A DNA stretch of 64,000 nt from an uncultured Rhizobiaceae group bacterium (lineage in GTDB: Bacteria; Pseudomonadota; Alphaproteobacteria; Rhizobiales; Rhizobiaceae): assembly GCA_937930845.1 (NCBI GenBank), contig CALHBJ010000010.1:1-64000 (forward strand), read 5' to 3'. Below, piece by piece: positions 9,966 to 43,052 of the stretch; the first letter of the stretch is position 1; each line of letters opens with the position of its first letter. The position numbers and the translations under genes are program-made. Below the pieces are notes generated by a model. That model worked only from the letters and a program-made list of their open reading frames with translations, had not been told where the DNA came from and did not search any database.

Positions 9966-11009
9966 ATGAGCATCAACAAATCCGTCATTGACCTGATCGG
10001 CAACACACCCCTCATCCGCCTCAACAAGGTTTCTGACGAAACAGGCTGCGAAATTCTGGGAAAGGCTGAATTCCTGAACCCCGGCCAATCGGTCAAAGAC
10101 CGTGCTGCCCTGTCGATCATTCGCCAGGCCGAACGCGAAGGCTCAATTCGGCCCGGCGGCATTATCGTGGAAGGCACCGCAGGCAATACCGGCATCGGCC
10201 TCGCCATGGTAGGCAATGCGCTGGGATATCGTTCCGTTATTGTTATTCCAGACAGCCAAAGCCAGGAAAAGAAAGATGCCATTCGTGCCTTTGGCGCAGA
10301 GCTGATTGAAGTGCCGCCCAAACCCTATAGCAATCCAAACAATTTCGTGCGCCTGTCCGGCAGGCTTGCCGAACAATTAAACAAGACCCACGATGCAGGT
10401 GCCGTGTGGGCCAACCAGTTTGACAACACGGCCAATCGTCAGGCCCATATCGATACAACAGGCCCGGAAATCTGGGACCAGACCGATGGTAAAGTGGACG
10501 CATTCATCTGCGCTTGCGGCAGCGGCGGCACACTGGCAGGCGTGGCATCGGCCCTGCGCGAACGCAATCCAATCATCAAGATTGGCCTTGCGGACCCAGG
10601 TGGCGCGGCACTTTATGGCTATTACGCCCATGGCGAATTGAAAGCCGAGGGCACATCCATATCGGAAGGCATCGGCCAGGGCCGCATTACGGCCAACCTG
10701 GAAGGTCTGGAAGTGGATTTCCCCTATCGTATTTCAGATAATGAAGCCCTGCCCATTGTGTTCGATCTGATGGAACAGGAAGGACTGGTTCTGGGGGGAT
10801 CGTCCGGCATCAACATCGCGGGCGCCGTGCGTCTGGCAAAGGAACTGGGGCCCGGCCACACCATTGTCACCATCCTGTGTGACTACGGCACCCGCTATCA
10901 GGCCAAACTGTTCAATCCCGAATTCCTGCGTTCCAAGGATTTGCCCGTTGCGGCATGGATGGAAAACCGGCCCAACATCGACATTCCCTTTGAAGAGGTT
11001 CCTGAATGA
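9966..11009 (+). CDS. cysK: Cysteine synthase (O-acetylserine sulfhydrylase) family
   Basis: A fold-type II PLP enzyme of 347 residues that makes L-cysteine from O-acetyl-L-serine and sulfide. Visible motifs are IGNTPLIRLNKV, the PLP lysine in LNPGQSVKDRAAL, the substrate loop VEGTAGNTGIGLA, the phosphate-binding CGSGGTLAGVASAL, and EGLVLGGSSGINIAGA. It is longer than E. coli CysK (about 323 aa) because of a C-terminal extension (LFNPEFLRSKDLPVAAWMEN). That places it in the longer CysK-like group, and an O-acetylserine-dependent rather than cystathionine role is likely but not certain. Its stop overlaps the alaX start (ATGA), so the two are translationally coupled. Confidence 0.92.
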   Translation: MSINKSVIDLIGNTPLIRLNKVSDETGCEILGKAEFLNPGQSVKDRAALSIIRQAEREGSIRPGGIIVEGTAGNTGIGLAMVGNALGYRSVIVIPDSQSQEKKDAIRAFGAELIEVPPKPYSNPNNFVRLSGRLAEQLNKTHDAGAVWANQFDNTANRQAHIDTTGPEIWDQTDGKVDAFICACGSGGTLAGVASALRERNPIIKIGLADPGGAALYGYYAHGELKAEGTSISEGIGQGRITANLEGLEVDFPYRISDNEALPIVFDLMEQEGLVLGGSSGINIAGAVRLAKELGPGHTIVTILCDYGTRYQAKLFNPEFLRSKDLPVAAWMENRPNIDIPFEEVPE

Positions 11010-36235: not shown

Positions 36236-38365
36236 CTATTCCCCAACCACTGCGTCCAGCGTGTCCCGCAATTGGAATTTAAGCGCAGAGCCGCCCGGCC
36301 AAATCTTCGCTGGCGAAACGCGCCGGGACACAGAACCTGTTGTGCGCCGGTCAATGGACGTTTCTTCGCCCCCATTGGCAGGAATAGGGGCTTGAGGCGC
36401 AACGGATTTCAGCTTTTGTTGTTTTTGCCAGCGTTGAATGCGCGCGTTCCAGCCCTTGGTTGAGATGTTCAACCGCGAACGCAATTTCTTGGCGAAATAG
36501 ATGGAACCGGCTTCATTGAGATGGTGCGCATCGCGATATAAGAGCTGCCCCCTGTGGAAGAATTTACACATGCTGTCGAAACACTGAAGGTCATTCACCT
36601 CCACCATTTCCGGCATCAGGCGAGCCAGCCCCCGATTGTAGCGTAGTTCGCGGTCCGCGGCCTTTGGATCCCCCGTACAACGCCGCGCGATATCCAGATC
36701 GGACAGCGCGTAGGCTGGCACATTCACACAATTGGCCAGCGACGCGCCGGGGCGGATAAAGTCGCCCAGGAAAATCACCCGGTGGTCTGTATTGGCAAAT
36801 TTGTCGAGCAGAATGCGTGTTGGCTTGTAAATCCGTGTCGCGCTGGCACGCTTGGCCGATGAGATAATGATATGCGCAGGACGCGCCGCCTGCAGCAGTT
36901 CAATCGCCTTGCGGTTGCGGGCCACGCATTTTTGCGTCCCGCTGGAACGGAAATCGCGCACATAGCCACCTAGCCCCGACTGGGGCACACAGCCGTTCAT
37001 ATACAACGCATAGACATTGTAGTTCTTGTAAACCGTCGACAGGCCAGCAATCAGATGTTGCGCATGGCTGTCGCCAAATAAATAGATATCGTGTTTCTTG
37101 CCGCGAAAATTTTGACACGTGACAATATCGCGATTGTCCCCGGCGAATGTGCCTTCAGGCGCAAATGACGTGCAATAAGTATTGTGAACATGGCGTCGTG
37201 ATTCCACATCCGTGCGGGCAATCAAGCGATCGGCGGGCACCCGCCACGACATCCCTTGCGTATAGTAAGCTGCCGCTGACGGCACGGCGATCAAGGCTGC
37301 GCAAATGCCTGCAAATCCGGCAAAACGCAGATCCTTGCCCGGTTCGCCATGGCGAAAACGGCTTTCTACGAATCGGTATTGCAACCAGCCAAGCACCAGG
37401 GACAATCCCATGATCAGCCATTTCATCACGGTGTTGGGCTGGGTCTGGGTGATCAAAAAGGTGAACACAATCACCGGCCAATGGACCAGATAAAGCGAAT
37501 AGCTGATCTTGCCGACCCAGACCATGAAGGCCAGCCGCAAAGGGGCCGCTGCAAAACGTGCCCGCGAACAGGCGATGAACGCAGCCGTGCCAAGACAAGG
37601 CCAAAGCGCGGTGATGCCAGGGAACGGGGTGTCGTGATTGTAACTGATAATGCTCCAGATAATCACGGCCAGACCCGTGAAAGCACCAATCTCCAAAATC
37701 ATGGGCGACTTGATGCGATGTGTCGGCAACCACACGAGCGCTGCACCAATACCCAATTCCACAACCCGCGCTGGCAGCAGATAAAAAGCCGCATCCCGGT
37801 CCGTGCTGACCCAATATTCCGCCAACATGAGGCTTGCCGCCCCCAACAGGCCCAAAAACACCAGCGCAATGGCACGGTTCGCCTTGGCAAACCCAAAAAC
37901 GACAAGCGCGGGCCAGATCAAATAAAACTGCTCTTCCACCGACAATGACCAGGTATGAAGCAAAGGCTTGGTGCTGGATGCTGCGTCAAAATAGTCAGCT
38001 TCAAACCAGAAATAGATATTCGACAAACTGGTAAGTGCAGCCAGCGTCGAAGCTCCAAAGTCCTGCATCTGTTCCGGCGACAGGAACAGAAACCCACCAA
38101 TCCAGGAAGCCAGAACGGTGCTGAGCAATGCGGGCACAAGACGGCGAATGCGGCGCAGATAAAAACGGCCAAACTGGAACGAACCGGTTTCATTGACCTC
38201 GCGCAAAATCAGGCTGGTGATCAGATAGCCGGATATGACGAAAAATACATCAACCCCCACATAGCCGCCGCCCAGCAATGAGAAGCCTGCGTGATACAGC
38301 ACCACTGACAACACCGCGATCGCCCGCAGCCCGTCAATTTCCGGTTGATATCTCAATTGCGCCAT
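36236..38365 (-). CDS. OafA/YrhL-type acyltransferase-3 with C-terminal SGNH domain
   Basis: A 709-residue inner-membrane O-acyltransferase predicted to acetylate cell-surface glycans. The N-terminal acyltransferase-3 domain starts YQPEIDGLRAIAVLSVVLYH and continues VGVDVFFVISGYLITSLI, with the R/R-R motif FYLRRIRRLVPAL and SLSVEEQFYLIWP. About ten helices span residues 10-370. The C-terminal periplasmic SGNH hydrolase-like domain (about 420-650) has YLFGDSHAQHL (nucleophile Ser) and a distal DAHHLNEAG (Asp/His). The start at 38365 (MAQLRYQ) replaces the GTG at 38398 in the ORF track. Next upstream on the same strand is a formyltransferase gene, 105 nt away. Confidence 0.92.
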   Translation of the reverse strand: MAQLRYQPEIDGLRAIAVLSVVLYHAGFSLLGGGYVGVDVFFVISGYLITSLILREVNETGSFQFGRFYLRRIRRLVPALLSTVLASWIGGFLFLSPEQMQDFGASTLAALTSLSNIYFWFEADYFDAASSTKPLLHTWSLSVEEQFYLIWPALVVFGFAKANRAIALVFLGLLGAASLMLAEYWVSTDRDAAFYLLPARVVELGIGAALVWLPTHRIKSPMILEIGAFTGLAVIIWSIISYNHDTPFPGITALWPCLGTAAFIACSRARFAAAPLRLAFMVWVGKISYSLYLVHWPVIVFTFLITQTQPNTVMKWLIMGLSLVLGWLQYRFVESRFRHGEPGKDLRFAGFAGICAALIAVPSAAAYYTQGMSWRVPADRLIARTDVESRRHVHNTYCTSFAPEGTFAGDNRDIVTCQNFRGKKHDIYLFGDSHAQHLIAGLSTVYKNYNVYALYMNGCVPQSGLGGYVRDFRSSGTQKCVARNRKAIELLQAARPAHIIISSAKRASATRIYKPTRILLDKFANTDHRVIFLGDFIRPGASLANCVNVPAYALSDLDIARRCTGDPKAADRELRYNRGLARLMPEMVEVNDLQCFDSMCKFFHRGQLLYRDAHHLNEAGSIYFAKKLRSRLNISTKGWNARIQRWQKQQKLKSVAPQAPIPANGGEETSIDRRTTGSVSRRVSPAKIWPGGSALKFQLRDTLDAVVGE

Positions 38366-38470
38366 GCCCGCTTCACGCCCCTTGCGATGCCACCACAAAA
38401 CACAAGCGTCACGGCGGTGACTTACTATCGGGCGGGCCGGTTAATTGTCGTTTAAACGCAATGCAATTTG

Positions 38471-39442
38471 TCAGGGCAAAAATGCGGGCTTGATACGTTG
38501 AAAGGAAATGTAGCGGTGCGCTCTGCGCTTCAGGCTGCCCCAATAGGATTCCCGGCGAATTTTCACACGGCAATCGGCAAGGTTAAATTCGACACTGAAA
38601 AACCCGACTTTATCCGGCTGTTGAGTGACCGGCCCAATTTTTTGAGGAACGCCAACAAGGCTCAATCTCTTGTGCTTAACGAAATCGGGCCTCACAGTCA
38701 CCTTCGGCACCCGACCCAGCATTACTTCCATGAAATGGTTGGCGCGCTCCACAGACCAGTCCCGCGACAGGGCGGACGGCGTTTCATTTGCATTGTAGTA
38801 GGTCGCGATGCTTTCGTCTTGAGGTATCGACCCCAATTTGTCGTCCAGAAACGCCATCAATTGTGTATCCACCAGATGGGCACCGGCATTGCTGATGTTC
38901 AGCCGCCATTCTTCAAAACCCTTGTCTTCCAGGGGAACGGCAACCTGCCCGATGATCTCGCCTTCATCAATGCCACGGGTCATTAGATGCAGCGTCATGC
39001 CACCATATCTGTTGGCCAACCCATTGAGTATCAGCGCCTGCAAGGGTTTCGGCCCCCTACAAACCGGCAAAAGTGCCGGATGCAGGTTGAATACACGCTC
39101 TGGCATCGCATCCAGCACGGGTTGACGGACGATCACCGTTGAACCGCTGCAAAGGATGAAATCGACCGGCCCAACCTCTTCCAGCCGCTCCATCATGTCT
39201 TCAGATGTGATCGGCACCACTGGAATTTCCATGTCGGTGATTTGGCGAACCACATCCCAATGCCGGGCTGCGAGCAGACGCTTCAAGCCCCTGCGCGGCT
39301 TGAAATAACCAGCATATGCGCTCCAGATTTCCCGAACCTCAATGTCATTTTTGCGCAAAGCCCTGACCACCGCCAACAGCGTATGACTGTTTTCACCCAA
39401 AACGATGCAAACCCGTTTCGCGCTATCTTTAGAATCTGAAAT
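38471..39442 (-). CDS. Formyltransferase-domain protein (Fmt/sugar N-formyltransferase-like), probable ATT start
   Basis: A hydroxymethyl-/formyltransferase-fold protein predicted to move a formyl group from 10-formyl-tetrahydrofolate. The catalytic triad is intact: Asn and His in VFNLHPALLPVCRGPKP, and Asp in HLMTRGIDEGEIIGQ. The ORF track starts at a TTG (39400), but the frame upstream encodes the expected first strand (KRVCIVLGENSH), so the true start is earlier. No ATG, GTG or TTG exists between that strand and the upstream in-frame stop. An ATT at 39442 is preceded by AAGGAAGAG at 7-nt spacing, giving a 323-residue product. It differs from housekeeping Fmt in lacking the usual C-terminal tRNA-binding domain. 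It is divergent from the RiPP precursor genes. Confidence 0.8.
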   Translation of the reverse strand: MSDSKDSAKRVCIVLGENSHTLLAVVRALRKNDIEVREIWSAYAGYFKPRRGLKRLLAARHWDVVRQITDMEIPVVPITSEDMMERLEEVGPVDFILCSGSTVIVRQPVLDAMPERVFNLHPALLPVCRGPKPLQALILNGLANRYGGMTLHLMTRGIDEGEIIGQVAVPLEDKGFEEWRLNISNAGAHLVDTQLMAFLDDKLGSIPQDESIATYYNANETPSALSRDWSVERANHFMEVMLGRVPKVTVRPDFVKHKRLSLVGVPQKIGPVTQQPDKVGFFSVEFNLADCRVKIRRESYWGSLKRRAHRYISFQRIKPAFLP

Positions 39443-39822: not shown

Positions 39823-39945
39823 ATGAAAAAATCATACGAAACACCCGTGCTAAGCCGTCGCGAAAAAGCGTCAAACGTTACCGCTGGTGTATTTTCGACT
39901 AAGAGAGTTCCGCTTCCGGTATCGGGCCAAGTTGTCAACAATTGA
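39823..39945 (+). CDS. RiPP precursor peptide A with lasso-type leader
   Basis: A 40-residue peptide gene missing from the ORF track because of its size. AAGGA lies 7 nt before the ATG. The N-terminal half matches the lasso-RiPP leader pattern Y-x-x-P-x-L...T: YETPVLSRREK then SNVTA, placing Thr20 at the -2 position if cleavage follows Ala21. The predicted core is GVFSTKRVPLPVSGQVVNN, which contains no Asp or Glu at all. Paralog B lies exactly 272 bp downstream, with 21/40 identical residues. At eight shared residues (L10, E14, S17, N18, T20, A21, K27, R28) the codons differ only synonymously, strong evidence that the frame is coding and the leader under selection. Leader peptidase, leader-binding and kinase genes are nearby. 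Confidence 0.85.
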   Translation: MKKSYETPVLSRREKASNVTAGVFSTKRVPLPVSGQVVNN

Positions 39946-39955
39946 CCTGAACAAG

Positions 39956-39988
39956 TCCGCTGGAATGACGGTTCAATTGTTTCAGCAG
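39956..39988 (+). repeat. 33-nt conserved element, copy 1 (downstream of precursor A)
   Basis: Begins TCCGCTGGAATGACGGTTCA, 11 nt after the precursor A stop. It matches copy 2 at 32 of 33 positions. Within it GCTGGAA can pair with TTTCAGC (7 bp, one G-U) around a 14-nt loop. It is more conserved than the adjacent precursor coding sequence, so an RNA or regulatory role is possible. Confidence 0.8.
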
Positions 39989-40094
39989 ATTTTCCTGCAT
40001 TTGGTAACTTTGCTTGCCTGCACGAGGCAATCCACTTGCGCGTTGACACAAGGCAGTTAGCACGACTGCACGACATAATATTGAGAGTAGAACT

Positions 40095-40217
40095 ATGAAA
40101 AAATCATACGCAACACCCGAATTAAACCTGCGCGAGAAAACGTCGAATGTTACTGCGGTAACGATAACGTCCAAACGGATGGCGGTTCCGATATCGGGCG
40201 AATTTAACTACGCTTAA
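40095..40217 (+). CDS. RiPP precursor peptide B with lasso-type leader
   Basis: A 40-residue paralog of precursor A, also absent from the ORF track. The leader reads YATPELNLREK then SNVTA. The predicted core is VTITSKRMAVPISGEFNYA, whose only acidic residue is Glu at core position 15, too far for a lasso ring. Shared core features with peptide A are K27-R28 and P32-x-S34-G35. The ribosome-binding site is poor (GAGAG). It lies 149 nt after precursor A and about 90 nt before the nucleotidyltransferase gene, on the same strand. Confidence 0.82.
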   Translation: MKKSYATPELNLREKTSNVTAVTITSKRMAVPISGEFNYA

Positions 40218-40227
40218 ACTGTGCAAT

Positions 40228-40260
40228 TCCGCTGGAATGATGGTTCAATTGTTTCAGCAG
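40228..40260 (+). repeat. 33-nt conserved element, copy 2 (downstream of precursor B)
   Basis: Same element as at 39956 with a single C/T change, again starting 11 nt after the precursor stop codon and offering the same 7-bp stem. It lies between precursor B and the nucleotidyltransferase gene. Confidence 0.8.
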
Positions 40261-40307: not shown

Positions 40308-41318
40308 GTGCACGAATTTGATACGGAGGCAGTCAGCATTTTGACCAACTTCCTCCGTACACTTTTTCTGCAGATTGCCGACCCCCTCGCAACTGCGATC
40401 GAGCCGGGGCAACTCGAGTCTCAAACGGTTCCTGAACTTTTGGAACTGTTGGACAATCATGGCATGGAAGCCATTGCCTTGCGCAAGCTGCGCGGGTTGA
40501 AATCTCTCGATCCCCAAATAGATACTTGGCTCGAAAAAGCTGAAACCAGCCAGTTTGGGGCCAATATTGTCTCCATGAAACTGATATCCGAGTGGGATAC
40601 GGTGGGCGAGAGACTAGCTGAGGCCAATATCGCCCATGAGGTGGTCAAGGGGCCACTTTTCGCCGAAGACATTTATCCCAACCTGTCTGATCGGCCGTTC
40701 ACCGATATCGATCTGATTGTCGGTGCTGACGACTTTTCGCGCACACGGCCCATTATGGAGCCCCTGGGTTTTTATCTGGGTCTGCGTTCCAATACGGATA
40801 AGTCCGATCATTATCTGGAGCAAAAATGGCAACGCGGCACGTCGCCCATGATCCTCATCGAAATTCATGCCGACATGATTCACTATCCCGGGCTAAGACG
40901 TCAGGCATCCTTTGGACTGCACCAAATTCGCGAATGTGACGCCATAAGCCGTGAATTACGGCACCTGTTTACCGCCATCGTCCACGGCTTGAGCGGCCAC
41001 AAGCTTCACAATTTTCATTTTCTGGTTGATATCCTTCAGGCGTGGCGCGCCCTTGGTGTTGCCGACCGCGCGCACCTGAAACCCATGGCGGAAAAACTCA
41101 ATCTTCTGCGCGAACTGGTCGCTGGCCTGTGGCTGGTCGATCAGGCATTTGCGCCGCCGGAGTTGAACGAAACGCTGGCCGAAATTGCGGGCCCCAAAGG
41201 CGCTGCAAAACTGGCAAGCCCACTGACCCTGGATGCCGTGCTGGACGCCCCTTTCAATTCAAAATCATCGCGGGTTCGCCGCAACGCATTCCGAATGCGC
41301 CAAAATATTGGTGCCTGA
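40308..41318 (+). CDS. Nucleotidyltransferase-fold protein (NTP_transf_5 type) of the RiPP cluster
   Basis: A 336-residue protein with the polymerase-beta-like signature EVVKGPLFAEDIYPNLSDRP then FTDIDLIVG: a KG...Y...R...DxDLxV arrangement typical of the uncharacterised nucleotidyltransferase family found in lasso and related RiPP loci. It probably transfers a nucleotidyl group from NTP to a phosphorylated peptide or other acceptor; that is inference. The start is uncertain. The ORF track uses GTG 40308, while a TTG at 40341 has GGAGG 11 nt upstream. It is convergent with the HprK-like gene, only 8 nt apart. Confidence 0.82.
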   Translation: MHEFDTEAVSILTNFLRTLFLQIADPLATAIEPGQLESQTVPELLELLDNHGMEAIALRKLRGLKSLDPQIDTWLEKAETSQFGANIVSMKLISEWDTVGERLAEANIAHEVVKGPLFAEDIYPNLSDRPFTDIDLIVGADDFSRTRPIMEPLGFYLGLRSNTDKSDHYLEQKWQRGTSPMILIEIHADMIHYPGLRRQASFGLHQIRECDAISRELRHLFTAIVHGLSGHKLHNFHFLVDILQAWRALGVADRAHLKPMAEKLNLLRELVAGLWLVDQAFAPPELNETLAEIAGPKGAAKLASPLTLDAVLDAPFNSKSSRVRRNAFRMRQNIGA

Positions 41319-41326: not shown

Positions 41327-42325
41327 TCAAACAGGTTCCAATTCAAATTCTTCGCGAACCTTGGCGACAATCTCTTCGGGCGAACCATCCACACTCAATT
41401 GGCGCACACGCACCGTGCTAAGCATATTTACAAACAAATCGAAACGCGAAGCGTCGTGATCGGTCAATCCGTCATCACCGATCAACACACGATCGGCCAC
41501 AACCTTGGCCAATGCTTCCGCTGGCAGGTAGGGGACGATTGACACCCCCTCGCCGTCAACCCTGCGCAAATCAATGAAAGTGTGGATCCGCTTCATGTCA
41601 AAGTCAGAAACGGATGCAACGGTTCCAAGTGTTTCGCGGGTAAGCTGCTGTTCTTCGTTCTTGTCCCACAATTTTGCATCCATGAATGGCTCCAAAAACG
41701 GCAGCAGTTCCACCGTATGACGGCTCACTTTGCCCGGGCGAGGTAATCCCAGGCACCAGCCGCGCCCATCGCGAAAAAAGACGATGGCTGTGTCATCACC
41801 GGAAAGCCCGAAACCGGCTTTCGATAGTGCCACTGAAGTTGTGGTCTTGCCGGTGCCGCTTTCGGCATAAAGCAGCAAGCGTTCGTCAGTACCGGGAATG
41901 TCCATGCTGGCACAATGCAACAACGCGCCGCCAACACTGCGAACCCCCTGATCCATGGCAAAAATGCAAGCCAGCTGCAAATCGGCAGACTTGATATTTG
42001 CCCCCAGATAGACACGCGAACATTTGTTCACATGATCCATTTCCAACCCGAATTCGCCGGTCCGATACATGATGGACATATCATTGGAATAATACGCCTT
42101 GCAGGGGTCGTACATTTCAATCTTGCAGTCTTTGCTTGCATCAATGACAGATTGGGGCGGTTGATAATCCCCTTCTACACAATGAATGATTGAAGTCGGC
42201 AGGCTTTCATCAAGCGGCTCATCCGTGGCGAACGCGCCAACAAACCAATCCAGTGCCTTTTCAAATTCCGCCGATTGCGTTTCCAGTCCCAAATAACCGT
42301 AGCGCAAATCATACCATTTCGTCAT
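41327..42325 (-). CDS. HPr-kinase-like peptide kinase (HprK-related)
   Basis: A 332-residue protein related to the C-terminal domain of HPr kinase/phosphorylase. The Walker A loop is LLYAESGTGKTTTSVALSKA (P-loop about residues 154-161), followed by GFGLSGDDTAIVFF, the HprK-type loop with the catalytic acidic residues. It lacks the HprK N-terminal regulatory domain. Homologues in lasso-peptide clusters (for example the paeninodin kinase) phosphorylate a precursor serine. ATG 42325 (MTKWYDLRY) overlaps the B2 stop by ATGA, so the ORF track start at 42418 is too early. It is likely to phosphorylate the neighbouring precursor peptides. Confidence 0.85.
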   Translation of the reverse strand: MTKWYDLRYGYLGLETQSAEFEKALDWFVGAFATDEPLDESLPTSIIHCVEGDYQPPQSVIDASKDCKIEMYDPCKAYYSNDMSIMYRTGEFGLEMDHVNKCSRVYLGANIKSADLQLACIFAMDQGVRSVGGALLHCASMDIPGTDERLLLYAESGTGKTTTSVALSKAGFGLSGDDTAIVFFRDGRGWCLGLPRPGKVSRHTVELLPFLEPFMDAKLWDKNEEQQLTRETLGTVASVSDFDMKRIHTFIDLRRVDGEGVSIVPYLPAEALAKVVADRVLIGDDGLTDHDASRFDLFVNMLSTVRVRQLSVDGSPEEIVAKVREEFELEPV

Positions 42326-42741
42326 GTGCCCGTCCCTTCCGGAGAATGGATATGGATCAGATCCATGTCCGGCAAAATATCGTTTATGACCGGGGTGCCA
42401 TCCAGCACGACCCAGCAATGGGCTGAAATGCGGGGGCTGTTGATCGACTTCCGCTCAATGCCAAAATGAAGTTCCGGCCGATAGCCTGAAAGTCGCAGGA
42501 AGTGAAACCCCAACATGCCCTGGCGCAGGCACCGGCGATCTCGCATGAAGAAGGGGCGGCGCGTAACCTTGCGCGTATAACGGGCAATCTTGGAGGCCTC
42601 GACACCGGCAAAACGTGGCGCGCTTTGCGCCTCAGTCATATCCATGAGCTGCTGCAAATCCTTGCGCCAAACCCGCAACGGCAACGCTTTGGCCCAAAGC
42701 CACATTTCCAAACGCAGCCGGACACGCGCAAACAGGTTCAT
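42322..42741 (-). CDS. Lasso B2-type leader peptidase (transglutaminase-like)
   Basis: A 139-residue transglutaminase-fold cysteine protease of the lasso-peptide B2 family, which cuts the leader from the core. The catalytic residues are visible: Cys71 in DRRCLRQGMLGFHFL, His108 in SAHCWVVLDG and Asp121 in PVINDILPD. Length is normal for stand-alone B2. The start ATG follows the PqqD-like stop by 11 nt, and the stop overlaps the kinase start. In the split B1/B2 systems this subunit needs the leader-binding B1 partner, which is the adjacent gene. Confidence 0.87.
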   Translation of the reverse strand: MNLFARVRLRLEMWLWAKALPLRVWRKDLQQLMDMTEAQSAPRFAGVEASKIARYTRKVTRRPFFMRDRRCLRQGMLGFHFLRLSGYRPELHFGIERKSINSPRISAHCWVVLDGTPVINDILPDMDLIHIHSPEGTGT

Positions 42742-42752
42742 ATCAACTCAAT

Positions 42753-43052
42753 TCAGGCAGCGCCGCCAACCGGCACAACCACGCTTTCTTCTTCAAGCTT
42801 GCCGATGAAATCAGCCAGATCAGCATTCAGTTGGTCACGCCCAACTTCAAACTCTTCCAGAACCAAATCAATCAGTTCGGCAAATTTGCGCTGCCCATCA
42901 ATGCCTTTGACAAAAGCGCGCGCAGTGTCGTTGCAAGTGTAAATCTGGCCGGAAACCGTATTCAGCAAAATGCCGCTCTCCCCCACTTCCCGAAACGAGA
43001 TGTTCGGCCCCAACGCATAAGTCTTTTCGTGTGCACCCAATTTTCTATCCAA
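42753..43052 (-). CDS. PqqD-like leader-binding protein (B1/RRE), TTG start
   Basis: A 99-residue RiPP recognition element. The PqqD fold is suggested by SFREVGESGILLNTVSGQIY (beta hairpin), the following helix (TARAFVKGIDGQ) and the winged helices (FAELIDLVLEEFEVGRDQLN then ADLADFIGKLEEES). Its role is to bind the leader and present the peptide to the B2 peptidase and modifying enzymes. No ATG is available; the TTG at 43052 has GGGA at 8-nt spacing. First gene of PqqD-B2-kinase on the minus strand. Confidence 0.85.
   Translation of the reverse strand: MDRKLGAHEKTYALGPNISFREVGESGILLNTVSGQIYTCNDTARAFVKGIDGQRKFAELIDLVLEEFEVGRDQLNADLADFIGKLEEESVVVPVGGAA

Follow-up and report, generated by a model that had tools for sequence, protein, structure and literature searches.

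A lasso-like gene cluster with no ring-closing enzyme in a Rhizobiaceae bacterium: a probable pathway for linear phosphorylated peptides

The window analyzed here, a stretch of 64,000 nucleotides from an uncultured Rhizobiaceae group bacterium, carries two short precursor genes together with genes for a B1 protein, a B2 leader peptidase, an HprK-like kinase and a nucleotidyltransferase-fold (NTase) protein. We consider it probable that this locus directs a linear RiPP pathway assembled from lasso-peptide parts without the ring-closing enzyme, a B2-processed counterpart of the linear polyphosphorylated peptides (LPPs) of Bacillota, in which the kinase would phosphorylate Ser34 of the precursors and the NTase-fold enzyme would extend the phosphate. 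The gene content of the locus, the architecture of the leaders, a serine found in every core, the missing cyclase, the intact catalytic residues and the folds predicted for the kinase and the NTase are described below; together they suggest that Alphaproteobacteria make a type of linear modified peptide about which little is known.

The locus in the window

The genes and signals of the locus are the following:

38471..39400, minus strand: formyltransferase (Fmt-like, PF00551), divergent from precursor A, a recurrent accessory gene
39823..39945, plus strand: precursor A, an ORF of 40 aa (leader 1-21, core 22-40; leader HMM E=6.6e-11)
39959..39986, plus strand: terminator-like hairpin 3' of precursor A
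40095..40217, plus strand: precursor B, an ORF of 40 aa (leader 1-21, core 22-40; leader HMM E=2.3e-5)
40231..40258, plus strand: hairpin 3' of precursor B, near-identical to the hairpin after A
40308..41318, plus strand: NTP_transf_5 nucleotidyltransferase-fold protein (PF14907, E=1.1e-22), downstream of the precursors and on the same strand
41327..42325, minus strand: HprK-like kinase (profile hit to HPr kinase chains, E=6e-4), convergent with NTP_transf_5
42322..42741, minus strand: lasso-type leader peptidase B2 (NF033537, 57.4 bits with a cut-off of 33; PF13471)
42753..43052, minus strand: B1, a PqqD-like RRE (PF05402, E=5.9e-13)

Precursor A is formed by the leader MKKSYETPVLSRREKASNVTA and the core GVFSTKRVPLPVSGQVVNN, and precursor B by the leader MKKSYATPELNLREKTSNVTA and the core VTITSKRMAVPISGEFNYA; both leaders show Tyr(-17), Pro(-14), Leu(-12) and Thr(-2). 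The first-pass annotation of this DNA reported that K27-R28 and P32-x-S34-G35 are common to the two cores, and both ORFs read this way; each core has in addition a second serine, Ser25 in A and Ser26 in B, which that annotation did not weigh. It also took the synonymous-only codon differences at eight shared residues as a sign of selection on the peptides. The count is exact (L10, E14, S17, N18, T20, A21, K27 and R28, out of 21 shared residues), and the argument stands for the leader but not for the core, given that six of the eight residues belong to the leader and that the NG86 estimate of dN/dS between A and B is 0.11/0.95 (ratio 0.12) for the leader, as compared with 0.64/0.71 for the core; since the constraint falls mostly on the leader, the argument is weaker than was claimed. 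By their sequences A and B are tandem duplicates that also have the 3' hairpin in common, and therefore their likeness alone is weak evidence for the P-x-S-G motif; what carries the most weight is how they compare with relatives and with paralogues from the same genome. The two hairpins, both terminator-like, are better conserved than the cores.

The start codon of the kinase gene (ATG at 42325) overlaps the stop of the B2 gene. In the kinase, H147, K170, D187 and D188 are invariant in 24 sequences, and the model of the protein (pLDDT 92) has the HprK/PEPCK fold; this His-Lys-Asp-Asp set is essential in ThcoK, and is conserved in BsfK too (PMC9266682, PMC10368454). The kinase belongs to the same broad superfamily as HprK-related kinase A (HPr-rel-A, TIGR04352), and membership in that family was rejected, with a score of 17.5 bits against a curated cut-off of 200. 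Cys71 and His108 of B2 are kept in 12 of 12 sequences, and B2 accounts for all the PF13471 matches in the genome. In the NTP_transf_5 protein the invariant residues are K114 and G115 (Lys114-Gly115), D133 and D135 (Asp133-x-Asp135), and E185 (Glu185), and its model also reaches a pLDDT of 92.

The precursor family and the missing cyclase

Precursors at related loci were searched for using the leader alone, and a serine was not demanded. This search yielded 99 precursors at 47 four-gene loci from 25 lineage groups. The spacing of the leader is near-constant: Tyr is followed by Pro at +3, by Thr or Val (in a few cases Ala or Ser) at +15, and, with few exceptions, by Ala at +16; counted in this way, Tyr, Pro and Leu occupy positions -17, -14 and -12, the lasso leader numbering reported for BsfA (PMC10368454). 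The cores (for example IKPVSGPVDF, VASKTF, GANFSGKKGK and EPVSSKN) are mostly 6-19 aa long, and many of those from relatives have just 6-8 aa. Conservation of the serine among homologous precursors, on which the first-pass annotation had made its proposal depend, is complete, given that each of the 99 cores holds one. Serine is the only universal core residue; it is present in 90/90 unique cores, far above chance (no more than 75 in any of 1000 permutations; a frequency of 57% among background ORF tails matched for length), exactly once in 60 of them, and in the relatives it is commonest at core positions 3-5. Some loci carry arrays of precursors, with six copies in L050 and ten in L046 (3995-5465 and 10809-10910); the cores of the latter are near-identical (GANFSGKK...), which amounts to a high dosage of a single peptide type.

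These data bear on the possibility that ORFs A and B are fortuitous or decayed and that the machinery has some other substrate. The ORFs are indeed small, and the core is near-neutral between A and B; nonetheless, the leader shows a dN/dS ratio of 0.12 and matches the leader HMM, multi-copy arrays of precursors lie beside the same enzymes, and the serine is universal, so that we regard this possibility as hardly credible.

Whole genomes were also searched with the precursor alignment, and the matches were then read. In the genome from which the window comes, seven further precursors lie far from the enzymes and all of them have the serine, which brings the total to at least nine. The first three are VSSPTSGVANAYSR, IYQSPASGMTLTWVRPVEEAGD and KLTASGVPIQHRFVEVGEG; the remaining four are one ending in VVSGEMMDQGVSNGHSTT, DTPVSGVAKT, TIVLSNGTVISDFIGDLE and EVPISDERRSK. 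Such trans precursors are present as well in the five Mesorhizobium genomes tested, three of which have no precursor adjacent to the cluster, and the serine is present in 38 of 38 trans cores from other genomes. Since all the trans cores carry it, wherever a precursor was found, adjacent or in trans, we encountered no core in which the serine had been lost while the kinase was kept, the situation that had been named beforehand as contrary to the kinase-target proposal. It is probable that a single set of enzymes handles the products of all these dispersed genes, nine or more in number, and it would act on the distant ones in trans.

Three cytochrome P450s of a single subfamily are divergent from dispersed precursors in the window genome (L133, 5419-7053, contig C13; L134, 5911-9341, contig C1). 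No convincing leader-bearing ORF was found near seven other P450s of the same genome, and none beside P450 relatives in four other genomes. Three precursors of contig C7 (L135: 7608-7703, 7837-7956 and, on the minus strand, 10706-10804) lie amid apparent housekeeping genes with no obvious partner enzyme.

The first-pass annotation stated that the cores could not form a lasso ring, and this is borne out. Assuming cleavage after T20-A21, core A has no Asp or Glu and the sole Glu of core B is at core position 15; hence positions 7-9 hold no acidic residue in either core, and there is no cyclase at the locus. No Asn-synthetase-like cyclase was found near the window locus, and about 90 related loci gave a single one, in L069, which is more than 1 kb away, antisense and beyond B1, and was deemed unrelated. 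A PF00733 search of 28 genomes with the four genes detected, in every one, an Asn synthetase or a weak relative; among those genomes for which a comparison of contig numbers was possible, no match lies beside the cluster.

The locus has in common with lasso systems the YxxPxL leader, Thr at -2, the B1 RRE and the B2 protease, and it lacks a macrolactam cyclase in the cluster and an acidic residue at core 7-9. The lasso-like leader, B1 and B2, along with the Asn synthetase present elsewhere in the genome, could be taken as signs of true lasso peptides whose cyclase is encoded in trans. We find this extremely improbable: neither core has the acidic residue, which occurs at positions 7-9 in only 6 of the 90 unique cores of the relatives, many of these cores have a length of 6-8 aa, the clusters of the relatives are also devoid of a cyclase, and the strong PF00733 match of the window genome is on another contig, amid polysaccharide-type genes, with an apparently intact N-terminal amidotransferase Cys. 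The lasso reading was rejected on core length, composition and the missing cyclase, and lasso formation is effectively excluded.

Distribution and comparison with known systems

B1, B2, HprK and NTP5 occur together in approximately 86 distinct loci; scanning genome contigs with the NTase alignment brought up 80 loci, and kinase relatives were present in 12 of 249 genomes of an order sample. When the kinase profile was run across the class, only the genome of the window was recovered; this is no measure of distribution, given that just five candidates were scored in each genome. The members belong to Mesorhizobium, Devosia, Oricola, Hoeflea, Phreatobacter, Ancylobacter, the Rhodobacteraceae and one gammaproteobacterial MAG (L078); contigs common to different collections indicate that Mesorhizobium falls within the same taxonomic family as the genome of the window. 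About 50 loci, mostly from Mesorhizobium, have no adjacent precursor, and their precursors may be encoded in trans, which is where the five tested Mesorhizobium genomes have theirs. In the open-licence PMC literature we found no published description of cyclase-less B2/HprK clusters in Alphaproteobacteria.

The closest counterpart is the LPP system (lpp of Paenibacillus alginolyticus, PMC13381572, 2026). Both have a discrete RRE, an HprK-like kinase and an NTP transferase, with no cyclase, as well as a YxxP leader with Thr at Y+15; the LPP core serine is phosphorylated, and the window cores carry a serine. In contrast, the LPP systems have a SpI peptidase of archaeal type, a transporter resembling MsbA and the leader YxxPxVLxHQxIxFETxxS, and their authors state that LPPs are restricted to Bacillota (PMC13381572). 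Only YxxP and the Thr at Y+15 of that leader consensus match in the window, and no SpI-like leader peptidase was detected among the neighbouring proteins scanned; the lasso-type B2 takes its place in the window and in the relatives. The family of the window differs further in its occurrence in Alphaproteobacteria plus one gammaproteobacterial MAG, its short cores, its dispersed precursors, and its formyl, acyl and P450 modules.

Phosphorylated lasso peptides, i.e. pseudomycoidin (PsmK/PsmN), paeninodin (PadeK), the SyanK/ThcoK systems and Bsf (BsfK, Ser3), are similar to the window in having B1, B2, an HprK-like kinase with the His-Lys-Asp-Asp set, an NTase in psm and bsf, and a leader with Tyr(-17), Pro(-14) and Leu(-12). 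Unlike the window, they have a macrolactam cyclase and a ring-forming acidic core residue, and their modified serine is C-terminal or Ser3.

The window family represents a B2-processed solution in Alphaproteobacteria, parallel to the LPPs, whose very short cores make for easy synthesis. It also supplies candidate partner enzymes for the missing chemistry, namely the formyltransferase, the AMP-ligase/GNAT/ACP module and the P450s. Tools that demand a precursor beside the enzymes would miss the dispersed precursors.

Candidate acceptor serine, proposed steps and accessory modules

Each core of the window carries two candidate acceptors, which were scored with a serine context model trained on other lineages:

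39895..39897, plus strand: Ser25 of core A (core position 4), alternative acceptor, -1.15 bits
39916..39927, plus strand: P-V-S34-G of core A, favoured acceptor, +5.2 bits
40170..40172, plus strand: Ser26 of core B (core position 5), alternative acceptor, +0.03 bits
40188..40199, plus strand: P-I-S34-G of core B, favoured acceptor, +4.9 bits

Ser34 is favoured because of this model and of the panel of cores from the same genome, 7/9 of which have S-G, a number reached by 0 of 20,000 within-core shuffles. The proposal of the first-pass annotation that the serine of P-[VI]-S-G is a plausible target of the kinase is thereby strengthened on motif grounds, and we consider Ser34 the likely acceptor of a putative phosphorylation. 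What counts against it is that Ser34 is core position 13, that Ser25 and Ser26 are closer to the usual acceptor position, and that the characterized kinases of the HprK-like kind modify core Ser3 or a C-terminal serine; the serine phosphorylated by LppK is core Ser3, in a linear peptide (PMC13381572), and BsfK, together with B1, also phosphorylates Ser3 (PMC10368454).

The same pathway could instead use the leader-proximal Ser25 of A and Ser26 of B, with P-x-S-G as a secondary site or a recognition element. That alternative is consistent with the serine of the relatives being mostly at core 3-5, with the Ser3 targets of LppK and BsfK (PMC13381572, PMC10368454), and with the T-S-K of core B, which is present in some L042 cores as well; nonetheless, we hold it to be unlikely, in view of the scores of Ser25 and Ser26 as compared with about +5 for Ser34, the fact that these two serines are not column-conserved between A and B, the S-G serine at core 9 in L032-L034, and the S-G common to 7/9 cores of the genome. 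Having two serines per core, the window peptides offer a clear test of which one an HprK-like peptide kinase uses.

With Ser34 as the probable acceptor, the order of steps that we infer is as follows. B1 would bind the Y-x-x-P-x-L leader, and the HprK-like kinase would phosphorylate one core serine, most likely that of P-[VI]-S-G. B2 would then cleave after T20-A21 to remove the leader, and the NTP_transf_5 protein would extend the phosphate with a sugar or a nucleotide, by analogy with its pseudomycoidin counterpart. PsmN adds hexoses to phosphoserine, in vivo in the case of pseudomycoidin (PMC8498205, PMC9266682); what was observed of the window enzyme is its PF14907 match and its intact acidic residues. 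Deletion of the LPP NTase gene gave no detectable change in the product (PMC13381572), and therefore the NTase step is uncertain. Lastly, the formyltransferase would probably formylate an amine of the product; more generally, it or the GNAT module would acylate an amine, either of the peptide or of the added group.

The formyltransferase is found within 17 loci of the family, and in the genus relative L112 it immediately precedes B1 in the same orientation. Its residues N105, H107 and D145 are kept in 16 of 17 sequences, and the protein shows similarity both to sugar formylases and to Fmt. In Mesorhizobium, a Lys is present in a core at 9/10 loci with the formyltransferase vs 3/13 loci without it (p=0.003, uncorrected for relatedness; L073, L082, L086, L089, L095, L096, L100, L108 and L110 vs L083-L085, L099 and L104). 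In the window, an acyltransferase-3/SGNH (OafA-like) protein (36236-38398, minus strand) adjoins the formyltransferase. An AMP-ligase, a GNAT and an acyl-carrier protein occur together beside NTP5 in about 15 other loci; this module was noted in L032-L036, L038, L042, L046, L066, L069, L072, L079, L091 and L112, and is absent from the window locus.

The target of the acylation could be different. The NTase-fold protein might transfer a nucleotide, an alditol-phosphate or an amino sugar, and the formyltransferase, or the AMP-ligase/GNAT/ACP module, would then acylate the added group and not the peptide. In the PDB, the fold of the NTase model gave only weak matches (best E 0.03) to MenT, LnuA, ANT(2'') and FKRP, and a sequence search with the NTase profile gave no match; given such weak fold matches the donor is not predictable. 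The presence among them of ANT(2''), and of FKRP solved with CDP-ribitol, the resemblance to sugar formylases, and the recurrence of both accessory modules beside NTP5 speak for an acylated added group, whereas the weakness of these matches speaks against it and the association of the formyltransferase with Lys, with the relatedness of the loci uncorrected, fits formylation of the peptide itself. On balance we judge acylation of the added group to be rather improbable.

A broader scheme, which we put forward tentatively and with less than even confidence, is a modular system in which a central set of kinase, NTase and protease would act in trans on leader-tagged short peptides encoded throughout the genome; the S-G serine would be phosphorylated, the phosphate would become part of a conjugate carrying a formyl or acyl group, and further chemistry would come from dedicated partners, for instance the P450s next to the dispersed precursors of the window genome. 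If true, a modular phosphopeptide system of this kind is without precedent in the literature searched.

Four precursor leaders are fused to Peptidase_S74 (endosialidase chaperone) domains; no such domain was found in the genome of the window. The fusions are:

L024, 5857-6252, minus strand: leader fused to Peptidase_S74
L112, 7683-8084, minus strand: leader fused to Peptidase_S74
L142, 7588-7932, minus strand: leader fused to Peptidase_S74
L151, 6689-7141: leader fused to Peptidase_S74

If these domains undergo the self-cleavage usual for Peptidase_S74, Ser-bearing cores of about 11 aa would be freed from the L112 and L024 proteins.
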